64,000 nt of DNA from Xiphias gladius. Lineage: Eukaryota > Chordata > Actinopteri > Istiophoriformes > Xiphiidae. Within the stretch, counting starts at the first letter, position 1; each line of letters begins with the position of its first letter. Location of the stretch: positions 22,994,001 through 23,058,000 of the forward strand of contig NC_053413.1 in assembly GCF_016859285.1 (NCBI RefSeq). The letters are read 5' to 3'. The notes under the pieces were generated by a model. It was not told the origin of the DNA. It saw nothing but the letters and a program-made list of their open reading frames with translations, and did not search any database. Positions 11,235-62,100 of the stretch are shown one piece after another. The translations under genes and the position numbers were made by a program.

Positions 11235-26328
<15,094 letters not shown>

Positions 26329-30100: not shown

Positions 30101-33100
30101 TGGGCACTCATGGACAGACAAACTCAGTTTTATCTGACACGGCTGTCAGAGGGGTTGATATTTATTTTCCTCTTTCTGATTTCAGCCTCTCTGTCGGGTA
30201 ATGTGGGCGTGCTCCATCTGCTGGAGTCCGAGGAAAACCTGGACTGGGTCCTGCGCTCTGGTCCCAACCCTCCTTATATGGTCATCCTGGAGTCCCCTCT
30301 GTTTACCAGGTACAGTTCCCATGTCCCAGCCTGCAGAGGGAGGACCCACAGTCAAGTTTAATGACAGTTAATCTTGCTCTCTGTCTTCTGGGGATCACCT
30401 ACTGACACAGTGAATCTTTTTTCGATTTTTTTTTTTTTGAAGACAAAAAAATTGGCATTTGGTAACATTTTTGATGGAAATCCATTGTTATATTTGACTG
30501 TTTGTTATCAAGCAAAAATTAATAGAAAATAGTTAATGGATTAGACAACAGTGAAAATAACCCTAATTTAGTTCAGTAATTCTTGACTTTTCCTTCAATT
30601 ATGGAAAATCTTTTCTGTGTAGAGTAGCAGATGGGTGAGAATTTATATCTTCAGGACATGGCAGTAAAAACCCAGTCAGTCATAAATTGTCAGTTACAGT
30701 AATGTACAGTAAATTTGGCAAATTTTACCTGTCTGACCCCGAGGAACGCAACTTGAAACACATTTCAAACCCACGTCTGACCTGTATTTGTATCCGTGTG
30801 GTCTCCCCTGCCCCTCGCTGACCGACCGCCCCGTCAGATCCATCATGATGAAGCTGAAGAGCGGCTCCAGCAGGGTGGCGGGCGTTGCGGTTGTGGCGCC
30901 AAAAACGAACCCAGCCGGGAGCTTCTCTCCGCACACCGCCTGTCCCAACGAGAACTCAGGTGGGCGGGGATCTGCGAGCCATGGCTTGCTCTTCGGTCTT
31001 GCACAAGTTACAGAAATAAATTTTAGTTTTATGATCCTCAAGCTCTTGAAGTCACAAGGTGTAGTCGGTTCAGATTTAATGTTGTGTGAATGATTTCTGA
31101 AATGTAGCAGTGGCACCAGTTAATCATGTTTGTCCTCACAGCAGAGATTTAATGTCTCATAATTTTATGTTTTTTTAATTATGTCCTTTTACTCAAGTAA
31201 AAGTAGCAAATACACTATAAAAATACTCTGGGACAAGTTGAAGTCATTCAAAGTATTTAAACTGACCACTGCGGTCAAATAAATGCAGTGGAGTAAAAAC
31301 TACAATATTTCCCTTTGAAATGTTGTGAAGTATGGGCATAAAGTAGCAGAAAACTGAAATATCTGTACTTAAGTGCAGTGCTTGATTAAAGATACTTACC
31401 CCCCCTTTTTTTTTCCTCCTCTCTGTCTGGTTTTGGTTTTAAATTCCAGGCTGTGTGTGTGACCATAGTTTTTATGTTTTCAAGATTTGCATCAGGCACC
31501 GATACAAAAGTTCAGCTCGTACAGTGGCTTTAAAAAGCTAATCTTCATGTTTTATTATTTTACAGTGTAACATTACTGTGTAGGTGAATAGATTGTTTTA
31601 ACAATGATCAACAGAAAAATTGCTAATTAATTTTGAAAAATAAATCATGAAATTTCCATTTTAATGGTGTTAATCATTGATTTAATTTTCAATCAGAAAT
31701 CAGGAAGCTAAACGGACTCACTATTTTTAGCCTCAGTGTATTTACATGGCTTTGAAGAAACCTACTTATGCGGTACACGCTTCATACGTGCCTGCTCTGG
31801 TGTTCCTGATGATGATGTTCGCTCTATGTATTTCCCCTCAGGTGTTTATTCAGAGACCTACGGCCCAGACATGGCCCATTGTAATGTGACAATGTGGAAC
31901 CCTCTGGGAAACGGGTTGTCCTATGAGGAGTTTGACTTCCCCATCTTCTCTCTCAAAGACGACAATGACACTCAGGTCATCCGACAGGTAAATGGGACAG
32001 CAGATACTTTGTCTGTTACTCCCATATGGATCGACAGGCACTGCGTCGTTCAGCTTTGTTGTCACTGCACAAAATGGCTGTCTGGTTGTTCTCCTGTTGA
32101 CTCCGGCGTAGGAGAATAGATGTCCCTCCAAGTACAGCTACAGTAGAATCTGATCTGAACTCTGTGTTAGCATGTTGTGGCACATTATGTTGAGATGATT
32201 TATCAAAACTCACAAATCATTTGCTTCCTTTCCACTGTTGCTTGTGACAAAAAAGAGACAGATCCTATGACGTAGGTTTTAGACATGCTCTTCTGATGCC
32301 ATGTAAGTGTGCACACTGTTCTTTTCCGCGGTGGGCTTTATGTTTTCACAGATTACAGCGAACACAGAGCTGCCGAGCTCAGTGTGAACTGCGACTTGCA
32401 GGTCTCTCTTTATCTCAGCTTTCGGTTTCAGCTGACTGATAGTGGCGGACTGTGCATTTACAGTTGCCCCCTGGCAAATTCTTTATATCGCTCTGTGAGG
32501 GACTGTGTCGGTGACTTTTTGTTCACGGAAACGTTTTAGTCCAGAGGTTATATTCATGTTGTGGTTTATTTGTGTCGGTTTAAAACTTTGTGGTCGGTCT
32601 CTGCTTCTAATAAAATGGCAGGGTGGACGAGGGAAACTGTTCTGTAAACTGACAGTTTCGGGTTTTATCCCCAAAGCAGCTACGTTGTCAAAGTGATAAA
32701 TTTAGTTCCAGACACGGTATTTAGTATTATCGGGTCCACACCTGCCAATGTACCCGAGAGCGAGGAGCCAGACTCAGTTGTATATGTTTTAACTTGTTCT
32801 CAGGATTGAAAACTATGCGAGATACACTAAAATATTATAATGTTATCATGGATTCTGTGTCTGTAGAAATAAACCCACACACGAAGAGGTTTCATATGTG
32901 TACGCTTTGCTCCGTTCACAGTGTTTCTTGGACCATAACCATGCTGTGAACGGCAGCACTCCTCAGTACCCGCTGTGTGCTATGCAGCTCTACTCCCACA
33001 TGTCCGCCGTCACCAACACAGCCACCTGCATGAGGAGAAATTACATCAACTTCAGCATCAGCCCAGGTATTTACACTACATGAATAAATGTGTGAAATAA

Positions 33101-48760: not shown

Positions 48761-48987
48761 AATGTCCGATGGTCAGGACAGCGGCATGTGGCTTTGGGGG
48801 TCAAGCAGCTCGACTCTTTTATCGGAGCCACATCAATCTTATCTCAGCTCATTGGGCCACTTCCTGTCTCTGCAATACTTTGTTGGGAGATGAGGACAGA
48901 TTGTGTGCAGGAGTCTCTTTGAATCACAGCGCTGAGCAGAGGGCAGGCTTGTTGATCCAACCACACCCTGTTAGATTTGTACAAACA

Positions 48988-48990
<3 letters not shown>

Positions 48991-49032
<42 letters not shown>
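48991..49032. repeat. CA microsatellite
   Basis: About 21 AC units. It lies 112 nt from a TG microsatellite of opposite sense, so the two arms are complementary on one strand. Confidence 0.95.
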
Positions 49033-49034
<2 letters not shown>

Positions 49035-49142
49035 GCTCCGGTTTGCCGGCCATGTGAGCACGAAGGCTGACAGTAGCAGTTGTCTTGTTTTTTCCGCTGG
49101 TTTTACTGATGCCGTGGCAGCCAGCAGCGTGTGGTGGTCAGC

Positions 49143-49144
<2 letters not shown>

Positions 49145-49202
<58 letters not shown>
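49145..49202. repeat. TG microsatellite
   Basis: About 29 TG units. Partner of the CA tract at 48991. Together they create the long low-complexity frames seen on both strands here. Confidence 0.95.
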
Positions 49203-49203
<1 letters not shown>

Positions 49204-50392
49204 CCCTGGTACACTGATGAGCCTCTTCCCCTGCCAGAGCCTGGGTGTGTGCACGCTTATTTTCACAGTTGGTGTATCAGGCCTCAAATGGCTGTTGAAT
49301 AGAGCTGGTCATTGCAGAGATGGCCCAGATTGCTTTTCCACCCTGACAGCTGCTGTCTCAGTGCCAGCAGCTCGAACTGTTTGATGGCAGCTTGATTTTT
49401 TTTTTTCTTTAATTTTTATTTATTTATTCATTTTTTGCCTTTGGGAAAGTAGAGGCTGTAAAATCCTGCAGCTCGGTCTGCTTGTTTACAACGACCTGTA
49501 CTCGGGCTGCATGTTGGTGGCAAAGTTCTCGATAAATTTTGGTTGGTTTCATTAGTCATTGTCATAAGCTTTGAACGAATCGACAAACTTACTGGCCTCT
49601 TTTGGACTTAGCAACATCTTCACGGTCCTAGATTAGAAACACGGGCCACAGATGAACTCACGTATAAGCGTTTTGAGAAGAAGTCGGAAGGATTAAAAAA
49701 AGAAATGAATCCATGATTTCAGAATCGTGGAGGAGGGTGAGTGTTAAAGATTCGGTCAGATTAAGTGGAGAAAAACTGCTTTGTTTTTCCAACCACTGTA
49801 CGTCAGAACTTGTGGAAGAGATTAAATAACAGTAGCTCGGATAGACATTAATATTCATACCTGGGAATCTGGGAGGTTCGGTAATATGAGCACGAGAAAT
49901 TCACATTTAATGATGATACGCGTTTTGCACGTGACGGATTCTGATTTTTCTTCAGACTAAGTTAGGTTGGGCTTGGGCTAGGCAAGTTATTGGAACCGAA
50001 AGCAGTTGGTTGACTCCACCGGAGAGATGAAACTTGCAGAGAGTATTACTTAAGAAGGTAAATGAATAAATAAGATATGCAGAGATTTCATTGGTGGGTG
50101 GGATTGCGGTGTAGGACTTTGGACTCGTGACCTCTGGGTTTCAAAGAATTGGCCACAGCTCTTTACAGAGGTTGTTTTACGCAACATCTAAGACACGGAA
50201 GCAAGTGTCTGGCAAAATTTGTATTTTTTTTTTTTTGTAGTGAACGTGTTCCATAGTACAGAAAACACTTATCTTTGCCATCAGTTAATGATGTGAAATG
50301 GTTTTACACTCCCTTTTGGCTCAAGCCATAAAATCGCTCAACCACAGCACCGGTAGGCCTGAAGCCCAACATCCTTACTGTTTAATCTCAGA

Positions 50393-55110: not shown

Positions 55111-56142
55111 TAATTTACGCCCAGGATAAAGATATACATATAAAAACACCACTGAACAGTCAAACTAAGAGAGAAACCGCGCAATGATCTCTGCAGAGTT
55201 TATTTCTCCGGCAGATCAGTGGTGACTCAAGTGGCATGACTGGACAATATCTAGTCAAATGACAGCATCAGCCCAGTATGTTGGCGATGTGGGGTAAGAC
55301 CCATATGCAGTTTGTGTAAGTTGTATCCATAAGTTAAATGCTGAAACGGTCGCTTGATCAACAGAAGAATTCCTCGGTTTCATCACCTAGAGGATGATTT
55401 CATCCTGTAATCAAGTAATAAGTCGCACAAGTAGAAAGGAGTCACAGCGTAAGTGAACGGACTCAGCAATGTCAGTTACAAAAAGCTGCTTCTGTCTAGA
55501 GTTTGCTAATATTCACCACCAGAACGAGTCAGGCTGAGTGTGTTGAAGTGAGCGAAGGTGTGTCTTACTGTTTATGAATTGAACTTTTCATTTGTAATGA
55601 GGAGGACTGTTTTTTTTCCTCCTTCAACAGTTACATAGTCTCGTGATTACAATACTATTTAACTTTTTTTTTGTTTTGTTAAATGTGCTATTTGAATGCC
55701 AGATATGAAGGGAGCGCTTCCAACCGATGTTTATCTCGTTGATTATAGCAAGAACAGGATGCATGATATGAAAAGGAAGTTTTGCAAGGTTCAGAATAGA
55801 CCCTGGGGACCCTGAAGTGAATCCATCTAGATGGTCGGGTGTGATTAGCATTTAGAGAAACGAAGCAGGAAGTTCGCCAAGAATGGCTTGCTATAGATGA
55901 AAGGATACGCACGAACCCTCTTCTGTAATTTTACTGAAGCCCGTTCGCTCGACGTGTAACTTGAGACTGACGAGGATTTCGGCGTCATTCGAAATGAGGC
56001 TGTTGCATGCATGTACAGCGTTAGCACCATAATCTAGAGCAGATTTAAAAAATATGTACGGCGGTAATGTGATCCACAGCAGATACTGATGTGAAACAGG
56101 CCACAGTTTTCCAAAAGTTTCAACCAACTGTCTCTCTTTCAG

Positions 56143-59100
56143 ATCCCAGCCATCTCAGCTTTCCCCTGCCGCGGCTCCCCTACCCACCATCCTCTCCCGC
56201 CCGTCGTCCTCCCCTCCCTGTCCTCTCCGTAGCCTCCCCCGCTCCCCCGCCTCCCTTCTCCTGCTCCCTCCTCGTCGGCCTCCAAGATAGATTCCCTCAG
56301 GAGCAAGGTTGACCTGCTCAAGCTGCCCCTGGCTCTCTCCACCAAGTCCATCTCCGAGCGCAAGAGCCAGCTGGGAGGAGTCGGCGAGCGGCGCGGCACG
56401 GGGGGAGGAGGAGGAGGCGGGGCTCGCAAAGCCCGCTCACCGCCAACCCGAGACATGGACAACGAGTCGCAGTACTCGGGCTACTCATACAAGTCCTCCC
56501 ACTCCCGAAGCTCCCGCAAGCACAGGTGGGTCACGTACATAAGGCGAGATACTGTCGGCCTCGTCCTTCTCCTGCTGGCATTTTAGCGACAACCATTCAG
56601 GTTATTTCGGTGTTCCCTAGTGTTGGTGCCATGTGGGTCGAAGTTCCCAAACAAGGTCACGCCAGAGGATGAAATATTGCTTTCCCACAGGTTTGAATGT
56701 TAGCACCAAGTATAACATTATACATCGCACTTCCTGAGATCCATGACATGGTTTAATTAGATTATCAACAAGAATTTCCTGCCCTTATTAACATGTTCCT
56801 AAATTAAGTACATGTTACTTGTAATTAAAAATGATAATCGTTATAACGATGCAGTGGTTGGATTTGTAACGTGATTGTAGTTACATCAAGCCATAGTGCA
56901 GTGTATGGGTGGGAGGGAGCTGGGAGGCCGGGGGACTAGACGATGGTGGTCGCTTCCCCACAGAGGCAGTAACACACATCGGGATGACGATTTCGAGCGC
57001 TGCACTTTAATTAGAGGTAGCTGTCGCTGCAAAGGGGGAAACGCATTCCGATCTGGATCTGGTGTCTCACTTGTGTCCACAGTGTCCAGGAAAAAAAGTA
57101 ATAGATATTTCCCTCGTCAGGAGCACTCTGCATTCGTTCTTTCTAAGATCCCAACCTGGGACTTGAAGATGTTGGTGGTGGCTGGGCTCCAACTAATCCT
57201 CCCAGAGATTCAAGTTTTTAACATTTCCATTCAGTGTTTCTAAATGAAGTCAATGAGGTAATAATTACTATGAGCTCAGGCAGAAGTATTAGGACGTAGG
57301 GACCAAGCAGATGTTTGTTCAAATCGTTGTGACTTTTGGATAAATGTTTTGGGAATCGAAAGGGACAAAAAAAAACATAAAGTTTTAAATTTAGTTACTA
57401 TATTACATCTGCTTAATGTCTCCTATGAAAGACCCTGAACATGCTAAACCAAAACCCTGTTAACAAGGACAGTGAAAGAAGTAAATGTGTGTGTGTCTGT
57501 CTTCCAGGGATCGGCGGGATCGTCATCGCTCCAAGAGCCGAGACAGCAGCAGCCGTGGAGACAAATCGGTCACCATCCAGACTCCCGGAGAGCCGCTGCT
57601 CGATGCAGAGTCGACCCGCGGAGATGACAGGGTCGGTCGCACTGCTCGCCACAAGCTTGTCCGTTCCCTAAAACCACCTTTCATTCAACTACGACCTATG
57701 AAACAAAGGCCAGCCGCCCGGATCTCTGTTGTTCGTGGAATCGACAGCCATTGATCCAAAGGGGTTCATTTCTTTTGTAAATTCCTCGTTTGGTACTCCG
57801 GCTCCTTTTAACGACTACACAGTCTGCTACAGTATATTGTTGGGTAGAAAATAATTTGCTGTCGTTACTGGGGTTGCGGGCTCTTGTCACAATGGAGCTA
57901 CCCACGCTACTCCGTCTAGCACGGACGAAGCTTTTAGCTCCGGTTAAACCCACTACTTGATCAACAGAAATGGGAGTCGACTCTCTAAACTTCAGCCCGG
58001 TCTGTTCTCGCTACTTTTTCAGATCTCGCGCTGGGATTGCGACCTTAACGTTCTGCAGGCTTTGGGCATTATTAAAGTGTAGAAGATCAATTAATATTTT
58101 CTCACCAAATTTTTATTTTTATTTATTTTTTCGCTGGATCCCCTTTAAAGAAGATTGCTCTCCCGTTGAAGTGTCTTTTTCGCGTCCCTCTGATGTCTCG
58201 AGCGTGTTTCTCAGGAGCTGTCAGTCATTTCACTTCAATCCTCGTCTGTCCCGTCAGTCACCGGGGAAGAGCAGGTGTTGACATTTGTATATTTGAGTCT
58301 TAAGATACTGAGGAGGCAGTATTTTAAGTGAAGAGGCATTTTTTCATTACGGAGCCCGAGGTGACATTTTTGCTCCTGGATGAGGAGGCGAGGCGTCTTT
58401 CTTTAAATAGTCGACCCGTCGCCCTGTCTGGCTCGAGCGCTGGGCCACAGATGCCACTAAGGACACAAACAACATGGATTCTGAGGATGCGGAGGGGTTG
58501 ATTTGTTCTCGTCACTCCATGAAACAGTTGAACTTTTCTGGAGGTAGCTAGTTGGTAGAGCTGCAATGATTAGTCGATTGAATAATTGACAGAAAATTAA
58601 ATTCAATTTTTTTTTTTGTTTTTGTTTTGTTTTTTCAAATATTTTAAGCAAGATGATAAATGTGCTTCCTGCTTCTGAAATGTGAGGATTTGATTCTTTT
58701 CTTTGTTACTCATGAAAACCGAATATCTTTCGATTTTTGGACTGTTGGTCAAAACAACACTTGGAAAAATTATAAAAAATTATAAAGGGCAGTTCTTACT
58801 ATTTTCTGGCATTTATTTATTTATTTTTTTGACAAAACCATTAATCGATTGATTGAAAAAAAATAACCAGCAGACTAATCGATAATGAAACTAATCGTTA
58901 GTGGCAGCCCTAGATGAGGAAGTTAGCAAATAAAAATTTTTTCAGTAAATTTCTTTTTTTTTTTGAGATGTAGGGTTGAAATGTTTGAAGATTATTCCTC
59001 CAAACTTTGCTCACAAGCCTTTCATTTAAACAACCACCGTTTTCTGCCTTGATGCAGGATAGATTCTCAATATTTATTTGATCATTTGCTTAATTGTCAG

Positions 59101-62100
59101 CCTAAAATGTCAGAAAATAGTGGAAAATGCCAGTCACATGTCCCACGAGCGCGAGATGGCGTCTTCACATTGCTTGTTTTATCACACAAACAGTCTTAGA
59201 AACCCGCCGGCACTAAAAAAAAACAAACAAATACATACAATAAATAAACCCTCACGTTTGAGAAGCTAGAATCAGTGAATATTTGGCATTTTTATTAATT
59301 AACTATAAAAATAATTGTGGATTAATTTTCTGTCGATCGACTAATCGATGAAACAGCTCATCATTTCAGCGCTAGTCGGATCTGGTAAATCAATTTTATC
59401 ACGAAAAGACCAAACATATTCTGGTAAAAGCTTCAGAAATATTAATATTAAGCTTGTATTTCTTTGTTCACTCTAATCTCTTGCATTTCAAATCAAAAAT
59501 CTTGAGTCCTTCTCTTCATTAGCACTATTTTAGACGGTAAAAATGATCTCTCAGAACACATGAATAATTTCTTTCTCCCTGTCTGACAGGATGATAACTG
59601 GGGAGAGACCACCACCGTCGTCACTGGCACCTCAGAGCACAGCATCTCGAACGAGGACCTGACCCGCGTCTCCAAAGATTTGGAGGAGTCGACGCCGCTG
59701 GAGTGCAAGCGCTTTGTTGGCCCAGCTCTGGGAGGCTGCCTGAGCTTCTTCGCCCTCGTCACGCCTTTAGCCTTCCTCATCCTCCCGCAGGTCCTGTGGC
59801 GCGATGCCCTGGAGCCCTGCGGCACGCCCTGCGAGGGCCTCTACGTCTCCCTGGCCTTCAAGCTCCTGGTTCTGCTCATCTCCTCCTGGGCGCTGTTCCT
59901 CCGCCCTCCTCGCGCCACCCTGCCGCGCTTCTTCGTCTTCCGCTGCCTGCTGATGGTGCTGGTGTTCCTGTTCGTGGCCTCGTACTGGTTGTTCTATGGC
60001 GTGCGGGTGCTGGAGCCCAGGGAGCGGGACTACAGGGGGATTGTGGAGTACGCTGCCTCGCTGGTGGACGCCCTGCTCTTCATCCAGTACCTGGCTCTGG
60101 TGCTGCTGGAGGTCCGACACCTGCAGCCGGCCTTCTGCCTTAAGGTGGTCCGGAGCACGGACGGAGCCAGCAGGTTGTACAACGTGGGCCACCTCAGGTT
60201 AGTGAGACTGACCCTGGAAGCTGGTTAACATTTTGTCAAGTTGTTACTATACATGTAGGAAAAAAAATACAAAAATAGATTTTGGACGAAATATGATCAG
60301 GTTATATTCTGTGTCCGGTCGTCGATTTGACAAAGGGCTTGAATTAACTGTTGACCTTCAGAAACACCATTATATCGGTTACGAATCCCATGAAATGGGC
60401 ACTTGAACCTCTTGAAACCAGTGCACCTTTAGTGGTCATGCCGCACAAGTCAGTGGAGTTATGAAACCAAACCGGTAAAGACATTACAAATGTTTCCAGC
60501 AATCCGGCCTCTCTACGCGTCCTGTTAAATCAAGCTGCCTGTTTCTCTCTGTCGAAGGTCCTGTTCCAACATCCTATTTTTAAAAAGAAATACAAGTGAC
60601 GAGGAATTAAAGTCGCAAGTTACAAGGTAACTGTACGAGTTACAGTTTGTTCCATCGGGAATTTCACTTTTCACCTTATTCCAGCATCGGATTTCTCCAC
60701 ACTCCTCTTAAATACAAATGAAAGGGAGGCACTTGCGTCGGCTGTACGTGTGCACACGCGTGCGCCTCTGCATTTCTGCGTTTCGTAGCAAGTGTGTCCT
60801 AATTGTAGCTTTTTAGACATCGGATGATTTTTATCCATTCCCGTGTAGAGACAGGCAGTTAGACCTGCTTCATATACTCCACCCGTAACTAGTTGGTACA
60901 GTATATGACCCTTAAATGATTTGATACGTCGGGAGAAATTCAAGAAAGTCCACTGAAGTTTATTTTTCTGCTTTGTGTCCTGATGACCTTCATCTATTTT
61001 GATGTTGCTACCTAACAAATAATATGTAGGGCTCTTAATTTTCTTCCTGTTTTGTTTTTTTTGTTTTTTTTTTTATTAAAAAAGTGTTGGCTTACTTTAA
61101 TACTTCCCTGCAGTATTAAAAATGGCAAAGAATATAAAAGTCCAGTGATACAAAACGCTGCAGAGAAGCCAGATTAGAGAAATGGGTAAGATGAGTTAAA
61201 CATCTGAACAGGAGATAAACCTGTTTGAAGTCACTCTGCTTAGATAAAAGTACAACGGAATATGAAATGACAGTACCATTCAGTATTATTGTCTTGCATT
61301 AGCAGGTGTATAGTCGAGAGTCTGTCCTTGTCCAGTCAGCAGCCGCTGTTTGCCCGCTACTTACTGTGGCAGTGATGATTGACACTCCTGTTTTAGCATC
61401 CAGCGGGCAGCTGTCTGGGTCCTGGACCGTTATTACAGCGACTTCCCCGTCTACAACCCTGCCCTGCTCAACCTGCCCAAATCCATCCTGTCGAAGAAGA
61501 TGACCGGCTTCAAGGTTTACTCCCTGGATGGTAAATACAGCCCCGCGAACGCCGCTGAGGCCTGTTTTCTAATCCGTAACTCATAATTTTCCTCAATCCT
61601 CAGTGTCATTTGTGGGTCTGCAAAAGAACCAGGTGGCCTTTTGTTGGACATATGCCGAGGCTGAACCTTAGAGCAGGTTAAAATCTTCACCGAAGGTCAT
61701 TTACAAGTGTTTTCTTTACTCAGATCTGCATGAGATTAATTTTACTCCAGAGTCCAAATGTGAACATTATTTTACTCTCGCTCTCACCGGACATGAGCAT
61801 CGGCACATCCACTAATTCCTCTCCCTGCCTGCGTTGTCTCGTAGAAAACACCACCAATAACTCCACGGGGCAGTCCCGGGCCATGATAGCCGCCGCTGCC
61901 AGGAGGAGAGACAACTCCCACAACGAGTATTACTACGAGGAGGCCGAGATGGACCGCCGGATCCGCAAACGCAAGGCCAGGTCAGACAAGTTCTCCCCGC
62001 TTAGAGTGCAATGCGACGGCGGGGGGTCGCCGCGGTGCGCGATTCACGGAGCAGCAGACAAATGAAACCGGCGTTCGCAGGGGACGGACTGGAGAGAGTG

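Follow-up and report, generated by a model that had tools for sequence, protein, structure and literature searches.

The stretch upstream of the canonical vangl2 start in swordfish is very likely the fish orthologue of the AUA-initiated Vangl2-Long extension

Vangl2-Long, a longer form of Vangl2 that starts at an AUA codon, has been shown in human, mouse, and Xenopus (PMC11065751). The human 70 kDa form disappears once the AUA is changed to GCA, and junction peptides were found in human and Xenopus (PMC11065751). The long form is present in complexes with Vangl1 and Vangl2, in Xenopus neural plate cells the two GFP-tagged forms concentrate at the same anterior edge, and a strong requirement for the long form has been reported in Xenopus (PMC11065751). 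It has been predicted for every vertebrate with an available Vangl2 sequence (PMC11065751), and GENCODE now includes the AUA form of VANGL2 (PMC9789052, PMC11317171). Here, we analyzed a window of 64,000 nucleotides from the swordfish Xiphias gladius (contig NC_053413.1, positions 22,994,001 to 23,058,000; coordinates below are those of the window). The stretch before the usual vangl2 start is very likely the fish orthologue of Vangl2-Long, initiated at AUA, as judged from its alignment with short zebrafish and frog sequences.

The swordfish locus resembles published Vangl2-Long in being the same gene with an AUA start, in sharing A at -3 and G at +4 with frog, in having similar residues directly after the AUA, and in forming an in-frame extension of about 50 residues that ends at the canonical Met. 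It differs in carrying a run of seven glycines. SFPQ, CCDC8, and FXR2 likewise have a conserved in-frame near-cognate start upstream of the annotated AUG (PMC9789052, PMC11317171), although they are other genes and the starts among those listed are mostly CUG (PMC9789052). A first-pass annotation of the window had proposed a non-AUG, N-terminally extended Vangl2 and had mentioned a report of a vertebrate long form from an AUA codon; that form corresponds to Vangl2-Long (PMC11065751), and the proposal is supported by the alignment of start codon, context, and following residues with frog, and by a coding-like pattern of change relative to zebrafish. The feature is thus already known, and the swordfish copy is one further ordinary orthologue; nor is a fish version novel, because the zebrafish extension is listed in the legend to Fig. 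1G of PMC11065751 and the VANGL2 region is described as conserved in fish species (PMC11317171). The features of the locus are as follows.

About 56143-56525, plus strand: vangl2 exon with the canonical start (called exon 2), predicted from splice-site sequence and frame
56230-56232, plus strand: in-frame TAG, the upstream bound of the open frame, read in the sequence
56233-56286, plus strand: C/T-rich leader, open in frame and thought to be untranslated, from the sequence; G+C by codon position 0.67, 0.83, 0.72
56287-56454, plus strand: proposed Vangl2-Long N-terminal extension of 56 codons, from open frame and homology
56287-56289, plus strand: ATA, proposed near-cognate start of Vangl2-Long, from its context and its alignment with the ATA in the frog Vangl2-Long morpholino targets
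56291-56315, plus strand: orthologue of the zebrafish MO4-vangl2 morpholino target, 21 of 25 bases identical
56455-56525, plus strand: canonical vangl2 coding start, from VANGL2 match, frame after splicing, and zebrafish ATG morpholino target

The plus-strand gene is assigned to vangl2 and not vangl1 on three sequence matches. The first 24 residues match a solved Vang-like protein 2 with an expectation value (E) of 5.8e-07, versus 0.053 for Vang-like protein 1; the downstream stretch 59587-60225 is a Pfam Strabismus domain (E 4.7e-109) for which VANGL2 is the top of 3 PDB sequences; and the zebrafish vangl2 ATG morpholino target is identical at 23 of 24 bases at 56452. The limits of the exon, as judged from sequence and frame, are set by an acceptor AG at 56141-56142 behind a polypyrimidine tract and a donor GT at 56526, and the Vangl2-like frame runs on when 56525 is joined to 57508.

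Published morpholino targets served as short orthologous sequence from zebrafish and frog. The MO4-vangl2 target (sequence from PMC7250581 and PMC10659374) matches the window at 21 of 25 bases directly downstream of the ATA; its next best place in the window matches at 17 of 25, and the best of 500 base-shuffled targets reached 19. Each of the four differences affects the third base of a codon when read in the ATA frame: TCT/TCC, AGT/AGC, and GTG/GTT are silent, and GAA/GAC exchanges Glu and Asp. Random placement would put all four at third positions with a probability of 0.0055. Read in one of the other frames, each of the four differences alters a residue; in the remaining frame, two alter a residue and two swap a residue for a stop, with the zebrafish stop at one codon and the window stop at another. 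The pattern of change between zebrafish and the window looks like that of a coding frame, over these 25 bases only.

The frog sequence was taken from the two Xenopus Vangl2-Long morpholinos (PMC11065751). When anchored on the ATA, frog QPIK-(ATA)-ESLKES aligns with SASK-(ATA)-DSLRSK of the window, with four of 11 residues identical and two more similar (Glu/Asp and Lys/Arg); A at -3 and G at +4 are common to the two ATAs. The context of the ATA at 56287 agrees with what the first-pass annotation had described, and the codon lies 168 bases, or 56 sense codons, ahead of the ATG at 56455. Beside the AUA, the extension is conserved as protein, in a comparison limited to 25 bases for zebrafish and about 11 codons for frog.

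Several observations weigh against this interpretation. The frog match depends on anchoring at the ATA, because a plain DNA scan found no match there: the four best places for each frog long-form target all lie elsewhere in the window. The zebrafish comparison spans 25 bases only. The AUA is not fixed in evolution, since some birds have ATT as the start codon (PMC11317171). The open frame itself was re-found as first annotated, with the TAG at 56230, 74 sense codons across 56233-56454, and the ATG at 56455 as the sole ATG of the exon; it proves little, because about half of dinucleotide shuffles also stay open (46% for 56233-56454 and 50% for 56287-56454, n = 5,000) and because one other frame is open longer, for 119 codons over 56313-56672. 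The other two frames have one stop each in the exon (TAG at 56288 and TGA at 56310) and are open thereafter. The opposite strand is open as well, for 113 codons over the exon (56139-56480, minus strand), which we take as a by-product of composition.

Base composition adds little to the open frame. It had been argued that the codons after the ATA have a coding composition, and the count behind that argument is correct: G or C occupies the third position in 32 of the first 38 codons counted from 56287 (and in 41 of all 56). When the 114 bases of the 38 codons were shuffled 100,000 times, 0.1% of the shuffles reached 32 of 38. The argument is weak alone, as the cut at 38 codons was the earlier reader's choice and was made after the fact. 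In a comparison over few codons, G+C by codon position in the first 38 codons (0.61, 0.47, and 0.84) resembles that of the canonical start (0.33, 0.50, and 0.92) and differs from that of the leader. Taken alone, open frame and composition are near chance. The evidence for coding comes from homology, not from the openness of the frame.

These figures bear on a reading in which the whole stretch is an ordinary untranslated leader, its frame open by chance and its conserved part a DNA or RNA element. That about half of the shuffles remain open, and that the other frames are open across most of the stretch, is what such a leader would give. It would not account for differences from zebrafish that are confined to third positions, nor for the translation demonstrated in human, mouse, and Xenopus (PMC11065751). 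An initiation-favouring RNA hairpin downstream of the AUA was also considered and rejected: no structure above chance was found there, with all four folded stretches no better than shuffles (z -0.13, -0.07, 0.63, and 0.51). This result removes a possible support for AUA initiation, and it also speaks against a conserved RNA element. We regard an untranslated leader as very improbable.

A Vangl2-Long orthologue could also be translated mainly from one or several other near-cognate codons. Within 56233-56454 there are 13 in-frame near-cognates (AAG and AGG included), and in three of them, ATA 56287, AAG 56305, and ACG 56398, a purine at -3 is combined with G at +4. Examples of such alternative starts are CTG 56314 (G at -3), CTG 56323 (A at -3), and ACG 56398 (G at both -3 and +4); in Xenopus, a third Vangl2 band lies between those of the long and canonical forms, and the authors ascribed it to initiation somewhere between AUA and AUG (PMC11065751). 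Set against this, the human 70 kDa form needs the AUA (PMC11065751), and the residues just after the ATA, upstream of both CTGs, are conserved in zebrafish and frog. We give main use of another start only a slim chance, and retain the AUA at 56287 as the probable start of the extension.

Production of the two forms would most likely involve leaky scanning. Ribosomes would cross the C/T-rich leader, where the exon has no AUG ahead of the AUA at 56287; a minority would initiate at this AUA, in good context, to give Vangl2 with about 56 additional cytosolic residues, and most would continue to the AUG at 56455 to give canonical Vangl2. We infer that swordfish ribosomes initiate at this codon, how efficiently they do so, and, by analogy with Xenopus, that the product acts in planar cell polarity.

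No Pfam domain was found in the extension at E up to 1 (56287-56526 and 56233-56454). A single-sequence AlphaFold2 model of 80 residues, which is a weak model (mean predicted local distance difference test score 62.5, predicted template modelling score 0.18), contains helices spanning residues 2-11 and 22-28. It may be that the extension begins with a partly helical half and continues as disordered, glycine-rich sequence; a folded extension was set aside, the model being too weak to build on. The glycine run is encoded by a short GGA-rich repeat (56401-56424), whose length may vary among fish and may explain the longer extension here. Searches for relatives in prokaryotic and viral contig collections gave 591 and 83 pattern matches, none of them confirmed by tblastn, a negative that says little because the collections are prokaryotic and viral.

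Upstream of vangl2 and on the same strand, the window contains coding stretches of coatomer subunit alpha (17341-17658, plus strand; best PDB match E 1.5e-72) and nicastrin (within 31712-32116, plus strand; best PDB match E 2.7e-17). The three genes copa, ncstn, and vangl2 follow one order on one strand, as on human chromosome 1, where COPA, NCSTN, and VANGL2 are also neighbours. At about 48927-49381, His-Thr and Cys-Val runs in open-frame translations point to a CA/GT dinucleotide microsatellite.

The alignment has a consequence for the zebrafish reagent. Provided that the zebrafish AUA occupies the aligned position, the MO4 target extends over bases 5-29, with the first base of the ATA as base 1, and is inside codons 2-10 of the long frame, whereas the site has been described as 5' untranslated region (PMC10659374). 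We found no earlier mention of MO4 overlapping the long frame in the open-licence papers searched. Injected vangl2 mRNA without the MO4 site largely rescues the morphants (PMC10659374), which hints, at somewhat less than even likelihood, that the canonical form alone carries most vangl2 function in early neurulation in fish, unlike in Xenopus. If the rescue mRNA made the canonical form only, the need for the long form may be smaller in fish than in Xenopus. Tags, knock-ins, and rescue mRNAs built from the AUG onward, as well as morpholinos directed to sites ahead of that codon, would affect the two fish isoforms unequally. With the swordfish locus, a published isoform of developmental importance gains one more fish orthologue.
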